A stretch of 64,000 nt of DNA from positions 1,035,320 to 1,099,319 of the forward strand of contig NZ_JACHGE010000001.1 in the NCBI RefSeq assembly GCF_014202225.1, written 5' to 3'. The notes beneath the pieces were generated by a model. That model was not told the DNA's origin. It was given only the letters and a program-made list of their open reading frames with translations, and did not search any database. The translations under genes were made by a program, and so were the position numbers. This document shows positions 31,001 through 39,351 of the stretch, one piece after another. The DNA is from Algibacter amylolyticus. Lineage in GTDB: Bacteria; Bacteroidota; Bacteroidia; Flavobacteriales; Flavobacteriaceae. Positions within the stretch are counted from its first letter, which is position 1. Each line of letters starts with the position of its first letter.

Positions 31001-31819
31001 ATGCAGTTATTAAAGCAGCTTTTTAACTTTTATATAAATAGTAGTATTCACGTCGCTTTTTCGGTGGTTTCCTTAACGTGGATTACGTTTTTAACGGTTG
31101 GGTTTCCTGCAAGTCATACCGTTTTACTTTTTTTGTTTTTTGCTACTATTACAGGTTATAATTTTGTGAAGTATTTTGGGGTAGCAAAATTTCATCATAG
31201 ACGTTTAACCAATTGGCTAAAATGGATACAGTTATTATCCTTTATTTGCTTTTTATTGATGTGTTATTACGCGTTAAAACTAGAAGTTAGAACGTATGTT
31301 TTTCTTTTGGCTTTAGCTGTGTTAACCGTTTTTTATGCCATTCCTGTTTTTTCAAAGCAAAAAAGTAACTTAAGAAACGTAAGTGGGATTAAGGTGTATT
31401 TAATAGCTTTAGTTTGGGCTGGAGTAACTGTTTTTGTGCCAATAATAAATGCCGATTATTCTGTTAATGCAGATGTGATAATTTTGGGTGTACAGCGTTT
31501 TTTATATGTACTAATATTAATGCTGCCGTTCGAGATACGAGATTTAAAGTATGATGCTCTTAACCTCTCTACAATACCACAAAAATTAGGTGTCAAAAAA
31601 ACTAAAAACCTAGGTGTGTTACTATTGGTTGGCTTTTTCGTATTAGAATTTCTAAAAAAAGAGACTCATGGAAACACCATTTTAGCATTACTCATTATAA
31701 CTATATTAACCGCAATTTTTGTGCGTTTAAGTAAAATAGACCAAAATAAATATTATTGTTCTTTTTGGGTAGAAGGATTGCCCATTTTATGGCTTCTTTT
31801 AGTATTTCTAATTAATTAG
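31001..31819 (+). CDS. UbiA-like polytopic membrane protein
   Basis: The 272-residue protein has about eight membrane segments and no large soluble part. The layout and the sequence ITGYNFVKYFG, FYAIPVF and LPFEIRDLKYDALNLSTIPQKLGVKKTKNLG (in parts) resemble the UbiA prenyltransferase superfamily, where the last block corresponds to the second Asp-rich motif. The first motif (NDxxDxxxD) is not conserved, so activity is uncertain. The start was set at the ATG at 31001, just before the first membrane helix. Its 3' end overlaps the anti-sigma gene tail to tail by 8 bases. Confidence 0.6.
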   Translation: MQLLKQLFNFYINSSIHVAFSVVSLTWITFLTVGFPASHTVLLFLFFATITGYNFVKYFGVAKFHHRRLTNWLKWIQLLSFICFLLMCYYALKLEVRTYVFLLALAVLTVFYAIPVFSKQKSNLRNVSGIKVYLIALVWAGVTVFVPIINADYSVNADVIILGVQRFLYVLILMLPFEIRDLKYDALNLSTIPQKLGVKKTKNLGVLLLVGFFVLEFLKKETHGNTILALLIITILTAIFVRLSKIDQNKYYCSFWVEGLPILWLLLVFLIN

Positions 31820-32072
31820 AAACTTCTTTTAAAGCCTGATTAAAATCTTCTCTCATGGCTTCTTTACATTTTTTATCTAAACACTCAACTTCTGCTTTTT
31901 TAATAGTTTTTGTAAGTTTGGCATTGTTAGAAGAATACTTTCTACAAGCTCTACAAAAAATTAAATGCAAGTTTAGCAATATCTTTTCCTTTAAGCTGGC
32001 ATTTTTGTACTGTGTTTTATCACAAACATGATTTGCTTCTTCGCAAGGAATCATAAATCTTATATTACTCAT
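31812..32072 (-). CDS. putative zinc-binding anti-sigma factor
   Basis: The 86-residue protein has CEEANHVCD near the N-terminus and HLIFCRACRKYS about 25 residues later. This spacing of C/H residues resembles the zinc-finger anti-sigma (zf-HC2/ZAS) motif HxxxCxxC. There is no membrane segment, so it would be a soluble regulator. The ATG at 32072 follows the stop of the ECF sigma gene by 2 bases, which supports the pairing. Confidence 0.7.
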   Translation of the reverse strand: MSNIRFMIPCEEANHVCDKTQYKNASLKEKILLNLHLIFCRACRKYSSNNAKLTKTIKKAEVECLDKKCKEAMREDFNQALKEVSN

Positions 32073-32074
32073 AA

Positions 32075-32626
32075 TTAAAACCAATTTTCTTTTAAGCAAT
32101 CAGCCATGGCTGTTCTAGCTCTGTGGATGATAACCCATAGATTAGACGCTGTAATATTTAATTCATTACAAATAACTTCTGTTTCATAACCAAGTATGGT
32201 TTTCATTTTAAAAACTTCAGATTGTTTTGTTGGCAATTTACCCAAACAGTTGTGTATTGCGTCGCCTAATTCGTTGTTTTGTAAGGTGTCTTCTGCTGTT
32301 TTGTCAAACGGATCTGCTACACGTTCTTCTAGCCAATCACCTTCACTTTCGCTATCGTTATAATTAATTCTTACTTCGGCTTTTCCCTTGTTAGAATTAA
32401 TTTTGCGGTAGTGATCTATAATTTTTCGCTTTAAAATTGAAATGAGCCAAGTACGTTCGCTAGCCTCTCCCTTAAAGTTTTTCATAGACTTTAAACCCGC
32501 CAAAAACGTGTCTTGCACCAAGTCTTGAGCCTTATCTCTATCACTTACACGCGTTATGGTGTAATTAAAGAGGTAATCGGCATATAAGTCGATCCACTTA
32601 TCAGGATTAATAATTTGTTTTTGCAT
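32075..32626 (-). CDS. ECF-family RNA polymerase sigma factor
   Basis: The 183-residue sigma factor has region 2 (LFNYTITRVSDRDKAQDLVQDTFLAGLKSMKNFKGEASERTWLISILKRKIIDHYRK, in parts; the -10 recognition region) and region 4 (CLGKLPTKQSEVFKMKTILGYETEVICNELNITASNLWVIIHRARTAMADCL, in parts). It lacks region 3. The ATG at 32626 was chosen because the extra 16 residues of the longer form do not fit the family. It is cotranscribed with the anti-sigma gene and divergent from the secreted paralogue at 32786; whether it drives that gene is not known. Confidence 0.9.
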   Translation of the reverse strand: MQKQIINPDKWIDLYADYLFNYTITRVSDRDKAQDLVQDTFLAGLKSMKNFKGEASERTWLISILKRKIIDHYRKINSNKGKAEVRINYNDSESEGDWLEERVADPFDKTAEDTLQNNELGDAIHNCLGKLPTKQSEVFKMKTILGYETEVICNELNITASNLWVIIHRARTAMADCLKENWF

Positions 32627-32785
32627 AGTTTTATGGTAAAAATAGACAATTTTCAGAATAGTAGGTAATCCCATTAAATATTTTATTAATTACTTGCTTA
32701 TTTAGAGGGTTGAGTGTTATTGAGGGTTGTAATTTTATGTGTTTAGTTTTTAAAATTTTTATTTTGCCTCGTTAAATAAGGAAGC

Positions 32786-33877
32786 ATGCCCCCAAAAGAA
32801 AAATATTATTTATACTTATTTCTATTTCTATTTAAATTTTCAGCTTTTTCGCAAGTTGGAATTGGAACAACCGATATAGATGCTTCAGCAATTCTAGAAG
32901 TTTATGCAAATGATAAAGGCGTTCTTTTTCCTAATGTTGCATTAATGTCTAACACAGATCAAACAACTATACCAAGTCCTGTTGATGGGGTATTGGTCTA
33001 TAATACTGGCTTGGGTGCTTTAGCTTATGTTGGGTACGTGTTTTGGAATGGAAGTGAATGGCGTACTTTATTGAATAAATCTTCGGGTTCAGGTAGTATT
33101 GATTATCTTAATTGTTCAAATGTTTCGTTGGCACCTTCCAGTTATTCAAGCGGAGTTGCGTATAATGGAACAATGACTATTTCTTATTTAGGAGGAGATG
33201 GAGGTACTTTTCCTGAACAATCTATAGGCCCAATAAACGGATTAACAGCAACTTTAGCTGCCGGAAATTTTAATACCGGGGCAGGAGATTTAGTTTATAG
33301 CGTAACTGGCACGCCTACAATTACAAGCCCAAATACAACTAGTTTTAATGTAAATACAGGAGGACAAAGTTGTACAGCTATCGTGGGCGGTGAAAAACGT
33401 TTGATAAGTGATTATGCGCAAGTAAGTTTTGATGCCTATGGAAGCGGATCTAGGGGTATTTCATTAAATGGTGAGTTAGCCACAATTTTACCTGGTTCAA
33501 TAAATGTAGCGAGAGTTAAAAGATTAGATGATGGTGTGTTTAGGGTAGATTTTGTAGAGCCTTTTGATGATACTGCTTATGTTGTATCTGGTTTTGGGTT
33601 TGAACCTGGTTATTATAACAATGACTCTAGGCAGCCTTATTTGTATGTGCCTAACTACACGCGTTCAACGAATGATTTAGGTGATGCCATATTAGCTGAT
33701 AACGATGTTAGGCCCACTAACCCAACTAATAGTGCTTATGGTTTGGAAACCAGGCAAACGGTAGTAAAGTCTGATGGGTATACTTCGGCAGTTGCACGAT
33801 ATAGAACGCATTTTTATTTTATTGAAGGTTATTCACATTATCCTTTAGCGGGAGCTTCTTTAAGTATAACAAGGTAA
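32786..33877 (+). CDS. secreted protein of unknown function, paralogue A
   Basis: The 363-residue protein has a signal peptide (YLYLFLFLFKFSAFSQ) and the common Bacteroidota surface-protein opening VGIGTTDIDASAILEVYANDKGVLFPNVAL, followed by DGVLVYNTG and FWNGSEWRTL. This opening is often found at the start of tail-fibre-like or fibrillar surface proteins. The rest (about 115-363) is not recognised; it contains a Gly-rich repeat-like region (ISYLGGDGGTF, SFDAYGSGSRGISLNGELATILPG in parts). No T9SS sorting tail is seen. The next gene is about 80 percent identical by eye. Confidence 0.65.
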   Translation: MPPKEKYYLYLFLFLFKFSAFSQVGIGTTDIDASAILEVYANDKGVLFPNVALMSNTDQTTIPSPVDGVLVYNTGLGALAYVGYVFWNGSEWRTLLNKSSGSGSIDYLNCSNVSLAPSSYSSGVAYNGTMTISYLGGDGGTFPEQSIGPINGLTATLAAGNFNTGAGDLVYSVTGTPTITSPNTTSFNVNTGGQSCTAIVGGEKRLISDYAQVSFDAYGSGSRGISLNGELATILPGSINVARVKRLDDGVFRVDFVEPFDDTAYVVSGFGFEPGYYNNDSRQPYLYVPNYTRSTNDLGDAILADNDVRPTNPTNSAYGLETRQTVVKSDGYTSAVARYRTHFYFIEGYSHYPLAGASLSITR

Positions 33878-33991: not shown

Positions 33992-35107
33992 ATGAAATTC
34001 AAAATATTAATAAATATGTTCCAAATCAGATTTTATATAATACTATTATTTATAATGGTATTTAATCTCTCGGCTTTTGCTCAAGTAGGAATTGGTACTG
34101 CTACTGTTGATGCGTCTGCAATGCTAGAAGTTCATGCTGACGATAAAGGCGTTCTTTTTCCAAATGTAGCTTTAGTATCAAATACAGATCAAACCACTGT
34201 AGCAAATCCTGCCGATGGTTTATTGATATATAATACAGGGCTTGCGGCCTTAAATTATGTTGGCTATTTGTTTTGGAACGGTAGTGAGTGGCGAACTTTA
34301 GCAGATCAGTCTATTGGTTCTGGAACTATTGATAACTTAAATTGTTCAAATGCATCATTAGCGCCTTCAAGATATACAAGTGGAGTTTCGTATAATGGAA
34401 CAATGACTATTTCTTATTTAGGAGGCGATGGAGGTGCTTTTCCTGCGCAATCTATTGGGCCTATAAATGGATTAACAGCAACTTTGGCTCCTGGTAATTT
34501 TAATACAGGAGCAGGAGATTTAGTGTATAGTGTCTCAGGTACACCTACAGTTACTAGTCCTTACACCACCAGTTTTAATATAAATATAGGTGGGCAAAGT
34601 TGTACTGCTATTGTTGGTGGTGAAAAACGCCAGATAAGCGAATATGCGCAAGTAAGTTTTGATGCTTATGGTAGTGGCTCTAGAGGTATTTCTTTAGATG
34701 GTGAGTTGGCTACTATTTTGCCAGGTTCTATCAATATAGCGCGAGTTAAAAGGATGGATGATGGTGTGTTTAGAGTAGATTTTATTATTCCTTTTGTCGA
34801 TACAGCCTACGTTGTATCTGGGTTTGGGTTCGAGCCAGGTTATTACAATAATAACAATACCCAACCTTATTTGTATGTGCCAAACTATACACGTTCCACA
34901 AATGATTTAGGCGATGCTATTCTGGGTGATACAGATGTTAGACCTACAAACCCTACCAATAGTTCTTATGGTTTAGAAACTAGACAAACAGTAGTTAAGC
35001 CAGATGGATATACGTCAGCAGTGGCACGTTATACCACTCACTTTTACTTTATAGAAGGGTATGGGCATTACCCATTAGCAGGAGCTTCTTTAAGTATTAC
35101 AAGGTGA
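33992..35107 (+). CDS. secreted protein of unknown function, paralogue B
   Basis: This 371-residue protein is a close tandem copy of the preceding gene: the two share VGIGT--VDASA-LEV-A-DKGVLFPNVAL, the SYLGGDGG block, GEKR-IS-YAQVSFDAYGSGSRGISL, YLYVPNYTRSTNDLGDAIL and the C-terminus HYPLAGASLSITR. The signal peptide differs (FYIILLFIMVFNLSAFAQ). A start nine residues later, at 34019, is also possible. Differences are scattered, as expected after a duplication with later drift. The function is unknown; both copies end without a recognised anchor. Confidence 0.65.
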   Translation: MKFKILINMFQIRFYIILLFIMVFNLSAFAQVGIGTATVDASAMLEVHADDKGVLFPNVALVSNTDQTTVANPADGLLIYNTGLAALNYVGYLFWNGSEWRTLADQSIGSGTIDNLNCSNASLAPSRYTSGVSYNGTMTISYLGGDGGAFPAQSIGPINGLTATLAPGNFNTGAGDLVYSVSGTPTVTSPYTTSFNINIGGQSCTAIVGGEKRQISEYAQVSFDAYGSGSRGISLDGELATILPGSINIARVKRMDDGVFRVDFIIPFVDTAYVVSGFGFEPGYYNNNNTQPYLYVPNYTRSTNDLGDAILGDTDVRPTNPTNSSYGLETRQTVVKPDGYTSAVARYTTHFYFIEGYGHYPLAGASLSITR

Positions 35108-35158: not shown

Positions 35159-36079
35159 ATGGTTAAGAACATACTAAATATTAGTATTTATTCTAATGAC
35201 TACTACGCAAATATTAAAATCCTTTTACTATTTAACCTAATTACTTTTGTTTTTTTTAGTATTTGTACCGCGGTTTTAAATGGGTTTAAATTTGATTCAT
35301 TTATATATCTGTTTTGGGTAGTAATAAGTTTTTTAGCGATTGTTAGTCATTTAAGAACCAAATTTTCTTTAAAAACCTTTAAAATCATAGCCTTTTATTT
35401 TGTTTTAGGATTGGTTATTACTACTTGTTTTTTCTCTTTAAGGTATGATAACAAAATAGATAACGGCTATTATTTTTTGGGGTTAATTACTATTTTACCT
35501 ATTATTTTTGATATTAGAACTGATAAGAAAAAATTTATATTACTTGTTCTAGCCTCTGTTATTTCTGTAATTGTATTAAATACTTTTAGTTTAGGTGATA
35601 AATATTTGATACTTAGCAGCTCCACATCTATTGAGTTATTGCGGTATTATAATATTAGTTTTGCTATGCTTACCGTTATATACACTACTGTTTTTTTTGT
35701 GCAAAAAGATGTTCATTTTCAAGAGACAAAATCCAAAGTAAATAAAATTGAAAAGTCGCTTCGTGGTTTAAATAAACAATTTACGAAACAAGAAATTTCA
35801 GATTTATTATCCATAGCAAAAATGAATTCGGTTTTATTTTTGGAAAAATTTGAAATTTATTTTCCGGAATTTTTGAAAAATATTCAAAAAGGAAGTGGTT
35901 CTTTCAATACCATGGACTTGTATGTTTTAGCACTAATAAAGATTGGGTTAGATACCAAAGAAATAGCAGTTGTTTCTAATACTACCATTAAATCGGTAGA
36001 AAGTAGAAAGTACAGATTAAAGAAACGGCTTGAAATAGAATCGAATGTTAAAATAGATGATTATATAAAGACCTTGTAA
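35159..36079 (+). CDS. membrane-anchored LuxR-like transcriptional regulator
   Basis: The 306-residue protein has about six membrane segments in residues 20-185, then a linker with a coiled-coil-like stretch (FQETKSKVNKIEKSLRGLNKQFTKQEI in parts), and a C-terminal helix-turn-helix (about 248-300: MDLYVLALIKIGLDTKEIAVVSN, then TTIKSVESRKYRLKKRL), which is LuxR/GerE-like. Such membrane-bound regulators are common in Bacteroidota. It is downstream of the two secreted paralogues in the same direction, 51 bases after the second, and might sense or control them; this is inferred from position. Confidence 0.75.
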   Translation: MVKNILNISIYSNDYYANIKILLLFNLITFVFFSICTAVLNGFKFDSFIYLFWVVISFLAIVSHLRTKFSLKTFKIIAFYFVLGLVITTCFFSLRYDNKIDNGYYFLGLITILPIIFDIRTDKKKFILLVLASVISVIVLNTFSLGDKYLILSSSTSIELLRYYNISFAMLTVIYTTVFFVQKDVHFQETKSKVNKIEKSLRGLNKQFTKQEISDLLSIAKMNSVLFLEKFEIYFPEFLKNIQKGSGSFNTMDLYVLALIKIGLDTKEIAVVSNTTIKSVESRKYRLKKRLEIESNVKIDDYIKTL

Positions 36080-36107: not shown

Positions 36108-36503
36108 TTAATTCAAATAAATCATAATAAAAGTTGTACTGAAATATACCCAGAAAATTGAAAATAGGATATGCATTAGTGTTTCAAACTTTTTGCCTTT
36201 CCAAAGTTTTTTAGAATAGACAAAAAACTGAAAAAACAGTCTGAAACTCCAGAATACACCTAAACCTAAACATATTTTTCGACCTAAACTAGTTTCTATA
36301 AGCGCTGTTGAGCTTGTTAAACAGAGTAAACCCATTAAGAAAATAGTTAATGCAATAAAAAACGTGTGTGTTGTCATCATCTGCTTATTGATTAAGCTTA
36401 ATGATTTCAAATTGGTTTCCCATTTAAAATATTTATAGAAAAAGATATGAATTAGGGCTAACAGGATAAGTAAAACACCTATTAATTTTAAATGAATATA
36501 CAT
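36108..36503 (-). CDS. small polytopic membrane protein
   Basis: The 131-residue protein has about four membrane segments (around 5-25, 45-65, 75-95 and 108-128). I recognise no family. It is the last gene of the GbsR-led minus-strand operon, 20 bases after the methyltransferase gene. A role in membrane composition is possible from the company it keeps but is not shown. Confidence 0.6.
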   Translation of the reverse strand: MYIHLKLIGVLLILLALIHIFFYKYFKWETNLKSLSLINKQMMTTHTFFIALTIFLMGLLCLTSSTALIETSLGRKICLGLGVFWSFRLFFQFFVYSKKLWKGKKFETLMHILFSIFWVYFSTTFIMIYLN

Positions 36504-36523
36504 GTTTTTTGTAATTTAAAGGT

Positions 36524-37276
36524 TTAAGGTTTACTGCTAAAAACAGACATAAATGGGGTGAATTTATTCTCGCTAAATGTTGAGAATCCAGCGTTTTTAT
36601 ATGCTTTTTTCCATGTGGTTTTTGAAAAAAAATGGGTGAACCCAATTGAGAATGCTAAGAAATTTGGAAAATCTCTTAAATGCTCAACCATAATTACTGT
36701 ACCGTCGGGTTTACATACTCTGTGGCATTCTTTTAAAAACATCACTTTTTCTTTATGAGATCTTATTTCATGAGCCGCAGAAAGTAAAAAAATAGCATCA
36801 ATTGAATTATCTTTTAATGGAATAAGACCAGACTTTATTTGTTGTGTGTTTGGATACACCAAACTTACTTTTCTAGCTCTTACAATAGCAGGTTCTGTAT
36901 GTTGTTCGGCATGATAAAAATCAAAAACTTTTAAATTTGAAATAGGGAAATGGTTTTTAAGAATGAAGCTAGTTTCATCAAAACCAGCATTAATGTTTAT
37001 AATCTGTTTTGACTTAGAATCACTAAAGTTTAATGTATTTATCCATTCAAATTTGTAATACCCTGAAAAGTCATATACATAAGCAGATACAATTAAAGGC
37101 ATTAGCAAACCATAACCAAAAGCAGCAACAATTAACCAATATAAGGTAGTTGACCATTGAAACACAACATAGCTTAGTGTTATTAGTATTAAAACACTTA
37201 AACCGTAAATATAAAAATGTCTGTTAAAGCTTAATATATTTAGTACACCTTGAAACTTTTTTCTATTTATTTCCAT
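36524..37276 (-). CDS. membrane-associated SAM-dependent methyltransferase
   Basis: The 250-residue protein starts with two membrane segments (about 20-60), then a class I methyltransferase fold: IININAGFDETSFIL (degenerate motif I), LKVFDFYHAEQHTEPAIVRARK (motif II region), IPLKDNSIDAIFLLSAAHEIRSHKEKVMFLKECHRVCKPDGTVIMVEH (in parts; post-I to motif III) and a closing helix-strand pair. A UbiE-like architecture with a membrane anchor suggests a lipid or quinone-like substrate, but this is an inference. Its start overlaps the upstream gene (DUF2071) by 10 bases. Confidence 0.75.
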   Translation of the reverse strand: MEINRKKFQGVLNILSFNRHFYIYGLSVLILITLSYVVFQWSTTLYWLIVAAFGYGLLMPLIVSAYVYDFSGYYKFEWINTLNFSDSKSKQIININAGFDETSFILKNHFPISNLKVFDFYHAEQHTEPAIVRARKVSLVYPNTQQIKSGLIPLKDNSIDAIFLLSAAHEIRSHKEKVMFLKECHRVCKPDGTVIMVEHLRDFPNFLAFSIGFTHFFSKTTWKKAYKNAGFSTFSENKFTPFMSVFSSKP

Positions 37277-38007
37277 AATTCTTTTCTTCCTTTTTTCCAG
37301 TAATAGGGTATGTTTTCAATAATAAAAGCATTGGCTAATACAGGTGTTTTTAAATTTAGTGATTCTAAAAAATTAATATGATAGTTATTGATTTTTACAG
37401 GTTTGGGTTTCCAGTTTTGCCTTACACCTTCAATAATTAAAATTTCTTTTGTTTTTTCATTATATGTAAACGTAAAGGGCAGCGGTCCTGCAAAACGTCG
37501 GGCTTCTTGCCAGGTTTTAAATGGTGAGTGTTTTGGTAATTGTAGGTCTTCATTTTCTGTGGCATCTATTTCAATTTTAAAGTCTGATTTTATAGAAATA
37601 ATTTCGTTTATATTGCCTTTTAATGTCTGCGTTATATCGGTTGTTGTATAGTTGTAATGCGTAAAAAAATTACCCATTAACGCCATTTTCTTTTTGTTTG
37701 TTTCAGATTTTAAAATGAAGAGGCCTCGTAAGCGTTTGCCTTCTTTGTTAGTGTAACGCACAAATATCCTAAAGCCAATCAAAAAGAAATTATTACCCAT
37801 AAATTTCGGGAATCCTTTAGGACGTAATTGTTTGGTTTGTACCATGGCTGCTGCAACAAAAGCATATGTGTTGTTATGCGTGTCTAACTCTAAACACTCA
37901 GGTAACATGTTTTGTAATTCTTCTTTAGGAACAGCGAAGGTTAATACAAGAGAACTTTTAAAGAAAGCTTCAACTGCAAAAGGATGGTTTTTAAGGAAAG
38001 CTAACAT
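37267..38007 (-). CDS. DUF2071-like / acetoacetate decarboxylase-fold protein
   Basis: The 246-residue protein resembles DUF2071 (YqjF-like) proteins: VLTFAVPKEELQNMLPECLELDTHNNTYAFVAAAMVQTK (in parts), FRIFVRYTNKEGKRLRGLFILKSETNK (in parts), and a C-terminal strand region with FTFTYN. DUF2071 is thought to share the acetoacetate decarboxylase fold, but the lysine needed for that reaction cannot be assigned here and no function is established. It overlaps the DoxX-like gene by 17 bases at its start and the methyltransferase by 10 bases at its end, which shows tight translational coupling. Confidence 0.65.
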   Translation of the reverse strand: MLAFLKNHPFAVEAFFKSSLVLTFAVPKEELQNMLPECLELDTHNNTYAFVAAAMVQTKQLRPKGFPKFMGNNFFLIGFRIFVRYTNKEGKRLRGLFILKSETNKKKMALMGNFFTHYNYTTTDITQTLKGNINEIISIKSDFKIEIDATENEDLQLPKHSPFKTWQEARRFAGPLPFTFTYNEKTKEILIIEGVRQNWKPKPVKINNYHINFLESLNLKTPVLANAFIIENIPYYWKKGRKELWK

Positions 38008-38377
38008 AGTTGTGTGTTTTAAAATTTGTATGGTAAACTACAGCAATAAATAATAGAGCGAATAAAGAATTGAATGTGCCCCAAAGCAATAAATCTTGCG
38101 CTAGTACAAACTCTATTAAGTTCATAATTGCAACGATACATATTTGGGTTATTGCATTTAGTTTAAGTTTGTAATGGCTTAAGATCCATATAGCCATACA
38201 TACTTCGGCTACTCCGATTAAAATAGTAATAGCTCGTGAATTTGCATTACCTATAATGCGTTCTACAATTTCTTGATGACGTGGAACAAGGTTTAGAATT
38301 TTACAAAACATTCCGTTTATAACCCAAACCAAGGCTATAATAATATGTAACAAGTTATATAATTTTTGTGTTTTCAT
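37991..38377 (-). CDS. DoxX-like membrane protein
   Basis: The 128-residue protein has four membrane segments with the DoxX-like layout: YNLLHIIIALVWVINGMFCKI, then IGNANSRAITILIGVAEVCMAIWIL, then two closing helices. DoxX-like proteins have no clear biochemical role. Its ATG overlaps the stop of the upstream gene by 4 bases (38374-38377), and its stop lies inside the next gene. Confidence 0.7.
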   Translation of the reverse strand: MKTQKLYNLLHIIIALVWVINGMFCKILNLVPRHQEIVERIIGNANSRAITILIGVAEVCMAIWILSHYKLKLNAITQICIVAIMNLIEFVLAQDLLLWGTFNSLFALLFIAVVYHTNFKTHNYVSFP

Positions 38378-38745
38378 GAGTTTATTAATTGGGTTTTATA
38401 AGTCACATAAACAAAATACGACGCTATTATGGATGGAAAGATTACAAAAGCTTCAATGCCATAACTGTTAAAGAATGATATTAATAAAGCTAAAGCTGAA
38501 AAGTATATTAGCACTAATAACCAATAAATAATTAGTAATCTTTTTTCTGATTTGTGTCTAGAATTTATAAGGAAGAGACTAATAAGTGCCATAAAAGGTT
38601 GACCGATGCCAAGTGCTATCATGGATATTAAGCTATACTCTGATAGATTTTCAATAGGATAGTTGAAAACATAATTAAGAGGTAAAGCCCAAATAGATAT
38701 GCATAACAAATACATGACTAGGTTTGTAAAGTGTATTATTTTCAT
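38374..38745 (-). CDS. small polytopic membrane protein
   Basis: The 123-residue protein has four predicted membrane segments (about 7-25, 38-60, 70-92 and 98-116). No family is recognised. It is the first gene after the GbsR/MarR regulator; the second copy of the candidate operator (38759-38784) lies 13 bases before its ATG, so it is probably a direct target. Confidence 0.6.
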   Translation of the reverse strand: MKIIHFTNLVMYLLCISIWALPLNYVFNYPIENLSEYSLISMIALGIGQPFMALISLFLINSRHKSEKRLLIIYWLLVLIYFSALALLISFFNSYGIEAFVIFPSIIASYFVYVTYKTQLINS

Positions 38746-38758
38746 TTTTAATATTATT

Positions 38759-38784
38759 AAACTTTCAGAAATTACTGAAACTTA
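38759..38784 (-). promoter_or_regulatory. candidate GbsR/MarR operator 2
   Basis: An imperfect palindrome with arms ACTTTCAG and CTGAAA. It matches operator 1 (39326-39351) at 22 of 26 positions when both are read on the plus strand. It lies in the 52-base gap between the regulator gene and the first membrane-protein gene, 13 bases upstream of that ATG. Two independent occurrences around one regulator gene support a real binding site. Confidence 0.65.
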
Positions 38785-38797
38785 GTTTTAAATTTTT

Positions 38798-39301
38798 TTA
38801 TTTTATCAATTTCATTAAAGACTTAGTGATCCAAGTTTGTTCTTGATTAACAATTTTGTTCATCATAGAATCTGCTGTTTCGGCCAAATCGTGTAAAGCT
38901 TTGGTTTGTTTAATAAGTTCCTTCGTTTTTTCGGTGCCATCATCTTTTATGGACGATACCTCTTTTAAAATTTTAATTACCGGTTTAATTTCTCGTCTGC
39001 TACGTTGTTTTGCAATATGTCTTGCTAGTTCTTGAACATCTTTTTCTGTGGTAAAATACTCTTTACGCTCACCAGGAATTAACTCTTTAGTTACAATACC
39101 CCAATCCATTAATTGGCGTAAATTCATGCTTGTGTTTCCTCTAGAAATTTTTAACTCTTCCATGATTTCTTCCATGGATAGCGCTTTTGTAGAAATAAAA
39201 AGCAACGATTGAATTTGAGCCATAGCCTTGTTTATGCCCCATAATGTGCCTAAACTTCCCCATGTGCTAATAAATTTTTCTTTTGCCTCTTGATATTCCA
39301 T
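38798..39301 (-). CDS. GbsR/MarR family transcriptional regulator
   Basis: This 167-residue protein belongs to the GbsR group of MarR-like winged-helix regulators: AKEKFISTWGSLGTLWGINKAMAQIQSLLFIS, then the recognition part LSMEEIMEELKISRGNTSMNLRQLMDWGIV (in parts) and the wing KELIPGERKEYFTTEKD. The C-terminal half is helical and likely dimerises. It heads a minus-strand operon of membrane proteins, DUF2071 and a methyltransferase. A near-perfect palindrome overlaps its own promoter and recurs before the next gene, so it probably represses itself and the operon. The ligand is unknown. Confidence 0.88.
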   Translation of the reverse strand: MEYQEAKEKFISTWGSLGTLWGINKAMAQIQSLLFISTKALSMEEIMEELKISRGNTSMNLRQLMDWGIVTKELIPGERKEYFTTEKDVQELARHIAKQRSRREIKPVIKILKEVSSIKDDGTEKTKELIKQTKALHDLAETADSMMNKIVNQEQTWITKSLMKLIK

Positions 39302-39305
39302 GTCA

Positions 39306-39313
39306 CAAAGATA
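39306..39313 (-). promoter_or_regulatory. candidate -7 element of the gbsR-type gene
   Basis: On the minus strand TATCTTTG fits TAnnTTTG and ends 4 bases before the ATG at 39301. The corresponding -33 position, 19 bases upstream, is CTG inside the palindrome 39326-39351. The transcript may have almost no leader. The overlap of palindrome and -33 element is consistent with repression. Confidence 0.5.
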
Positions 39314-39325
39314 ATAAAACTTTTT

Positions 39326-39351
39326 AAACTTTCAGTAATTATTGAAAGTTT
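39326..39351 (-). promoter_or_regulatory. candidate GbsR/MarR operator 1
   Basis: A 26-base near-perfect inverted repeat with arms AAACTTTCA and TGAAAGTTT; only one pair of symmetric positions breaks the symmetry. It lies 24 bases upstream of the regulator ATG and covers the expected -33 region. A second copy lies at 38759-38784. Confidence 0.7.

Follow-up and report, generated by a model that had tools for sequence, protein, structure and literature searches.

Within the 64,000-nt window analysed here, the whole stretch of Algibacter amylolyticus DNA (contig NZ_JACHGE010000001.1) under study, a gene for a GbsR/MarR-type regulator of 167 amino acids (38798–39301, minus strand) stands in front of five closely packed genes on the same strand, referred to below as the cargo, and is accompanied by two copies of a palindrome, the putative operators op1 and op2. 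Op1 (39326–39351, no strand assigned) is 26 bp long and agrees with its own reverse complement at 24 of the 26 positions. Behind it lies the box TATCTTTG (39306–39313, minus strand), which ends 4 nt before the regulator ATG and fits TAnnTTTG, a consensus that we take to mark the Bacteroidetes type of -7 box; op1 thus covers the -33 region of the regulator promoter. Op2 (38759–38784, likewise without strand) equals op1 at 22 of 26 positions, is found 13 nt before the first cargo ATG with no primary -7 box behind it, and lies inside the sole larger gap of the array, the 52 nt between the regulator and the first cargo gene. An A/T tract (A7 TTT AAAA on the minus strand, 38786–38799) precedes op2 and overlaps the regulator stop codon.

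The cargo of the window, all on the minus strand, starts with a small membrane protein, B123 (38374–38745, no family above cut-off), followed by four genes that we call module A: a DoxX_3 protein (37991–38377; PF13781, 59.6 bits, cut-off 25), a DUF2071 protein (37267–38007; PF09844, 58 bits, cut-off 27), MTa, a putative methyltransferase with hydrophobic N-terminal segments (36524–37276; Methyltransf_11, 33 bits, cut-off 21.2) whose motifs were aligned, and A131, a membrane protein of four segments without a family above cut-off (36108–36503). The genes from B123 to MTa overlap by 4, 17, and 10 nt in that order, and 20 nt separate MTa from A131. A preliminary description of this DNA had placed one palindrome over the -33 position of the regulator promoter and the other in the only real gap of a tightly packed operon; positions, symmetry, and packing were all as it had given them.

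The palindrome is close to exclusive to this locus. A scan of the window with a relaxed pattern (≤ 3 mismatches) returned only the places of op1 and op2 (4 strand matches), while 0.17 matches (sd 0.55) are expected in a shuffled window and 4 matches were reached in 1 of 100 shuffles. At the same tolerance, the whole 4.35-Mb genome contained op1, op2, and one weak place with 3 mismatches, and the backwards pattern, used as a control over the whole genome, gave zero matches.

For comparison with other species, the best 80 of 201 named relatives were used (loci L025–L031 were left out of the later comparisons, the same genomes recurring within L039–L118). These do not represent 80 independent cases, since L065 and L066, which come from one assembly, have the same sequence over 16.5 kb, and the pairs L108/L110 and L102/L117 are each approximately 97% identical. 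Op1 was present in all 80 at ≤ 3 mismatches and in 77 at ≤ 1 mismatch, lying further upstream, at -206, in L089; op2 was present in 77 of 80 and was not found in L052, L074, and L089. When the halves of the pattern were swapped, the relatives' loci gave 0 matches at ≤ 2 mismatches vs. 155 for the real pattern, whereas at exactly 3 mismatches the real pattern and the control were equivalent (12 vs. 11), so that matches of this quality are meaningful only at the expected place. In a family-wide sample of 249 genomes (palindrome threshold ≤ 1 mismatch, regulator threshold E 1e-25 or better), the palindrome occurred in 35 and the regulator in 49, all 35 being among the 49; 14 of the 49 regulator genomes had no palindrome at this strict threshold. 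By coordinates, all 38 listed palindrome sites are within about 100 nt of a regulator gene, and all 29 sites that were fetched adjoin a regulator gene of 43–96% identity. The recurrence of the palindrome beside orthologous regulators, which the preliminary description had proposed as a check, was therefore borne out, and as sequence evidence these counts support a MarR/GbsR-type regulator with two conserved putative operators before tightly packed genes.

The two operators differ in what follows them. Counting 79 named loci together with the window, TAnnTTTG is found 37–39 nt after the start of op1 at 79 of 80 sites, and the full -33/-7 pair (TTG-17/23-TAnnTTT) at 68 of 80; behind op2 this pair is present at 0 of 78 sites. 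With relaxed boxes the difference persists, TAnnTnTG being found at 4 of 78 op2 sites vs. all 80 op1 sites, and TATnnT at 14 of 78 vs. 78 of 80. A primary promoter at op2 was considered and rejected, as strict and relaxed -7 boxes were searched both behind op2 and from +250 to +600 and none was conserved. The distance of op2 from the cargo is itself regular, the first cargo ATG lying 38–42 nt from the op2 start in most loci and op2 usually ending 12–16 nt before it. The spacing between op1 and op2 is 565–567 nt in 50 of 77 loci, with further values of 571–574, 580–588, and 656–678 nt; a DNA loop joining the two is not favoured, given these variable spacings without a common helical phase.

Op2 also has features of its own. 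The sequence A4 plus TTTAAA stands upstream of it at 38 of 78 sites vs. 0 of 80 for op1, and its core is asymmetric, unlike that of op1. In six loci (L073, L091, L102, L103, L105, and L117) a third operator copy (op3) with the same kind of A/T tract lies between stacked modules. A terminator-like hairpin precedes op2 in some distant loci, where it is followed by a T run (clear in L187, L037, L193, and L038, weaker in L036); as a general feature a terminator was rejected, clear hairpins being confined to these few distant loci, and the 45 nt before op2 fold with a median energy of -0.95 kcal/mol, a value taken without a shuffle control. Op2 and its tract could accordingly be read as a non-standard promoter covered by an operator, perhaps used by the extracytoplasmic function (ECF)-type sigma factor encoded on the right-hand edge of the variable region (32075–32674, minus strand; Sigma70_r2 and r4_2 above cut-off), with the cargo independent of read-through from the regulator gene. 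The recurrence of the tract-plus-palindrome element before later modules, the asymmetry of the core, the hairpins, and the position of the sigma gene all speak for this possibility, which we nevertheless find doubtful: no primary-type -7 box is conserved at op2, and L177–L179, which have no neighbouring sigma gene, keep the tract-plus-op2 element.

The regulator passes the test for the MarR superfamily (MarR_2, 29.4 bits, cut-off 27; HTH_5, 29.5 bits, cut-off 22), with 13.7 bits to PF01047 (MarR), below the cut-off of 24.6. Among solved structures, the best relative is Mj223 (1KU9; E 9.8e-19, residues 4–144), which by homology places it in the GbsR family; Mj223 is named as the template for GbsR models in parts of a survey of that family (PMC6207618). 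Algibacter pectinivorans has the most similar regulator among the named genomes (98% identity). Membership of the GbsR family could suggest a classical system for choline or glycine betaine, and one type of cargo methyltransferase shows weak similarity to sarcosine/dimethylglycine methyltransferase (46.1 bits, cut-off 550). The regulator nonetheless reaches only 51.4 bits with the model of the choline branch, CudC (NF047500), far below its cut-off of 218, and has zero aromatic residues at positions 84–156, the stretch where the choline cage would be expected; 66 of 97 homologues (164–168 aa, same start) have no aromatic residue at 84–150. With this scarcity of aromatic residues, a choline cage of the Bacillus subtilis kind seems unlikely, the stretch having been placed without a direct alignment to the B. 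subtilis GbsR. As betaine synthesis or Opu-type genes were also not recognised among the named cargo families, we consider the choline or betaine explanation highly improbable. The same genome contains a second, distant GbsR-type match (G000:C1:399086–399421, L229), with 32.3 bits to the CudC model, under the cut-off.

Behind the regulator and its operators, the genes change. The regulator, op1, the promoter, and op2 form a constant platform of approximately 620 bp, behind which 49 gene orders, mostly built from about a dozen families, were counted among 79 complete loci, i.e., loci reaching the sigma gene or gcvP, with some distant loci and the window included; open reading frames were called mechanically, so each missed or spurious one adds one gene order, and the protein clusters are single-linkage BLAST groups in which small membrane proteins may have been joined or separated in error. 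In coordinates that put the first cargo ATG of the window at +557, homology to the window on the left ends between +542 and +587 in 75 of the 80 named relatives; in the remaining 5 the end point is +503/504, with op2 shifted to about +608 to +629. The homology returns at +6668 to +6717, near the sigma start, in 69 of the 70 loci where this could be seen, the exception being L042 (+6537). The closest named relative, A. pectinivorans (L039), illustrates the switch, being 95.0% identical to the window over 7,255 bp up to +556, then carrying a different cargo, which encodes a small membrane protein and one of the TIGR01777 type, and returning to homology at 88.7% from the sigma gene onward. Among pairs of loci with 86–90% identity, gene order differs in 24 of 27, and in 21 of the 23 with different first genes the break lies ≤ 25 nt from the ATG; at ≥ 90% identity, gene order differs in 6 of 12 pairs and the break is within the same distance in 3 of 3 (the identity-binned pairs are not mutually independent). 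Evidence for conserved operators combined with exchange of the cargo is, in our view, strong.

The preliminary description had instead envisaged a ligand-induced operon dedicated to a single pathway, and would have expected the same gene order in relatives. The packing of the window genes as one unit agrees with this, as does the order DoxX_3-DUF2071-MTa-A131, which is kept in all 15 loci with MTa. Yet the cargo behind the same regulator and operators varies among close relatives, as the pair counts above indicate, and even within the window array B123 is separable, being absent in L042, where module A begins directly behind op2; a single dedicated operon is distinctly improbable.

Other families recognised behind the platform comprise TIGR01777 (264.4 bits vs. 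a cut-off of 207.35 for one representative, L045), DCC1-like proteins, FA_desaturase, a methyltransferase of the CMAS class, and a second DUF2071 type. The CMAS-class methyltransferase follows directly after the desaturase in 3 of 5 cases and after tm142 in 11 of 16. Throughout, the cargo is arranged as in operons, with 12 of 294 called genes in the opposite orientation and gaps of ≤ 50 nt in 177 of 204 cases (window not counted). Defence hotspots typically have conserved flanks around variable cargo, and the cargo here might in principle act against phages. However, 0 of 9 tested cargo proteins matched a PADLOC defence model at E 0.01 (the regulator itself weakly matched CRISPR-associated regulators), and the recognised cargo domains are those of metabolic enzymes, which leaves a defence role barely credible. 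No recombinase was recognised among the named cargo families; attachment sites were not searched for.

Regarding chemistry, membrane-lipid, isoprenoid, or quinone modification is a plausible function of the cargo to judge from its families. MTa scored 26.9 bits against the UbiE/MenG quinone methyltransferase model TIGR01934 and did not reach the cut-off of 158.35, and when the MTa alignment was searched as a profile against solved structures, the matches were mainly generic S-adenosylmethionine methyltransferases (best E 1.4e-5). In A131, His 19, 46, and 111 are invariant in all 25 aligned sequences and could serve in metal or heme binding or in catalysis. PMC4520260 connects DUF2071 with the fold of acetoacetate decarboxylase, the catalytic lysine being absent. 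MTa was found in 21 genomes of the family sample; in 10 of them the regulator is present as well, never more than about 2.5 kb away.

How far the cargo is inherited was examined on a tree built from the right-flank proteins of 74 loci (200 label shuffles). Several families were indistinguishable from shuffled labels: MTc required 20 changes for 24 occurrences (shuffled mean 20.4; 96 of 200 shuffles as low), and c4TM, tm142, and the desaturase were matched by 20, 25, and 200 of 200 shuffles, respectively. MTa required 11 changes for 15 occurrences (shuffled mean 13.8). The correlation between cargo and flank identity was weak for MTa (rho 0.26) and better for SDR (rho 0.66). Since some families cluster on the flank tree and others do not, the cargo is, as far as these sequences can tell, partly inherited and partly reshuffled, with gains not separable from losses on the tree.

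On the upstream side, a gene for an M3 peptidase precedes the regulator in 69 of the 80 named loci, mostly together with purE and purK (some loci are cut short and extra genes may intervene). The stretch between M3 and op1 also contains variable extra genes in a number of relatives, e.g., L057 and L045. Behind the cargo follow the ECF sigma gene, an anti-sigma-like gene (31812–32099, minus strand; NF052368, 43.1 bits, under the cut-off of 50), a membrane protein that lacks a Pfam name, and gcvP; no conserved control sequence was shown at this right border in the homology comparison. Between cargo and sigma gene, the window has two adjacent, very similar genes on the plus strand, of 363 aa (32786–33877, zero Pfam matches at E 0.01) and 371 aa (33992–35107, zero at E 1). 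A 306-aa protein with a hydrophobic N-terminal part (35159–36079, plus strand) is also inserted in this stretch, and its C-terminus has a weak LuxR-type match (GerE, 18.1 bits, cut-off 23.5).

The variation upstream of the regulator and the lack of a conserved control sequence at the right border would suit an ordinary variable stretch, in which the operators are kept for autocontrol of the regulator only and the cargo is accidental. We judge this improbable, given that op2, which is dispensable for the regulator promoter, is retained in nearly all named relatives, that the cargo is nearly always co-directional and drawn from the same families, and that distant genomes repeat the succession of regulator and cargo families despite different flanks. 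In these genomes of the order, the regulator is 42–59% identical and is followed by cargo families in, e.g., L036–L038, L180, L182–L184, L187, L189, L192, and L193; only small B-type membrane proteins were recognised behind it in L034, L181, L185, L186, L188, L190, L191, and L194, and no family of the repertoire in L035. Cargo of this repertoire therefore goes with the regulator in many distant genomes, though not in every one.

The whole is best explained, with a probability that we put at roughly 0.6, by a constant repression platform with an exchangeable operon behind it. A regulator dimer would bind op1 and block RNA polymerase at the -33 element, thereby limiting its own synthesis, and would also bind op2, where it most likely acts as a roadblock to read-through from the regulator gene into the cargo. 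A signal, probably not choline, would free both operators and turn the cargo on. This cargo comes from a restricted range of mainly membrane-associated families (in the window, module A and B123); its likely role is to modify a membrane lipid, isoprenoid, or quinone chemically, and its exchange may proceed via recombination in the constant flanks.

Several observations weigh against this explanation. The roadblock at op2 relies on the absence of a known promoter type there, while the A/T tract, the asymmetric core, and some distant hairpins mean that the cargo could own an unusual promoter. The break in homology loses sharpness in more distant pairs, falling to 137 of 193, 525 of 824, and 515 of 810. 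On the flank tree, clustering exceeds that of shuffled labels for SDR, B, DUF2071, and DCC1 (as few changes in 1, 1, 3, and 0 of 200 shuffles) and for MTa (3 of 200). The other 11 of the 21 genomes with MTa have no regulator at the E 1e-25 threshold and no palindrome near the module; in 9 of these 11 the full four-gene order was recognised (the DoxX gene was not called in L223, nor A131 in L225). The function of module A therefore does not need the regulator, which, together with the swapping of cargo, also speaks against the preliminary view of a regulator dedicated to one membrane-protein/methyltransferase operon. Finally, the whole reading is built on sequence evidence.

Known systems offer partial parallels to such a repression platform. 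GbsR and OpcR of B. subtilis, OpuAR, and CudC share the regulator family and the Mj223 fold template with the window regulator. In B. subtilis, parts of PMC7396694 describe OpcR as blocking the -35 region and GbsR as a roadblock, and the operators of the family as A/T-rich inverted repeats, with one mode of action at -35 and one downstream of the start. The window locus shares A/T-rich inverted repeats with the GbsR and OpcR systems, as far as these are described there, but combines both operator positions in one locus and has controlled genes that change between species; it also differs from these four systems in its distance from the CudC cut-off, in the few aromatic residues of the presumed cage stretch, and in that no osmoprotectant genes were recognised. 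As in autoregulated MarR operons, the repressor gene comes first, an operator covers its own promoter, and the controlled genes are on the same strand. Such operons usually keep one target set, unlike the 49 gene orders behind the platform. In integrons and polysaccharide loci, too, variable genes follow a control region that stays constant, and the platform resembles them in this respect; control by a dedicated repressor with its own putative operators would set it apart. No description of the platform was found in the open-licence literature, which is weak evidence of absence.

A more specific version, which we hold with slightly less than even confidence, is a repressor-guarded plug-in site, in which the platform of approximately 620 bp and a portable element of about 45 bp (A/T tract plus operator) would put incoming modules of membrane chemistry under one signal, sister species trading their output by flank recombination. 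If true, this would explain why Bacteroidetes GbsR proteins lack a consistent target: a 2018 survey of the GbsR family, in the parts that bear on Bacteroidetes, gives no consistent gene context for them (PMC6207618), and this inconsistency would become a pattern in which regulator and operators stay constant and the output is exchanged. The locus also yields an exact candidate operator sequence and a delimited promoter-repressor unit, and natural swap experiments would be available in sister species whose cargo differs. Roughly a dozen families of which little is known (TIGR01777, DUF2071, DCC1-like, DoxX_3, two methyltransferase types, and small membrane proteins) appear under one control signal, and this signal, once found, would link them all to one condition at once. 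In these marine bacteria, the switch seems to be retained while the genes under its control are exchanged.

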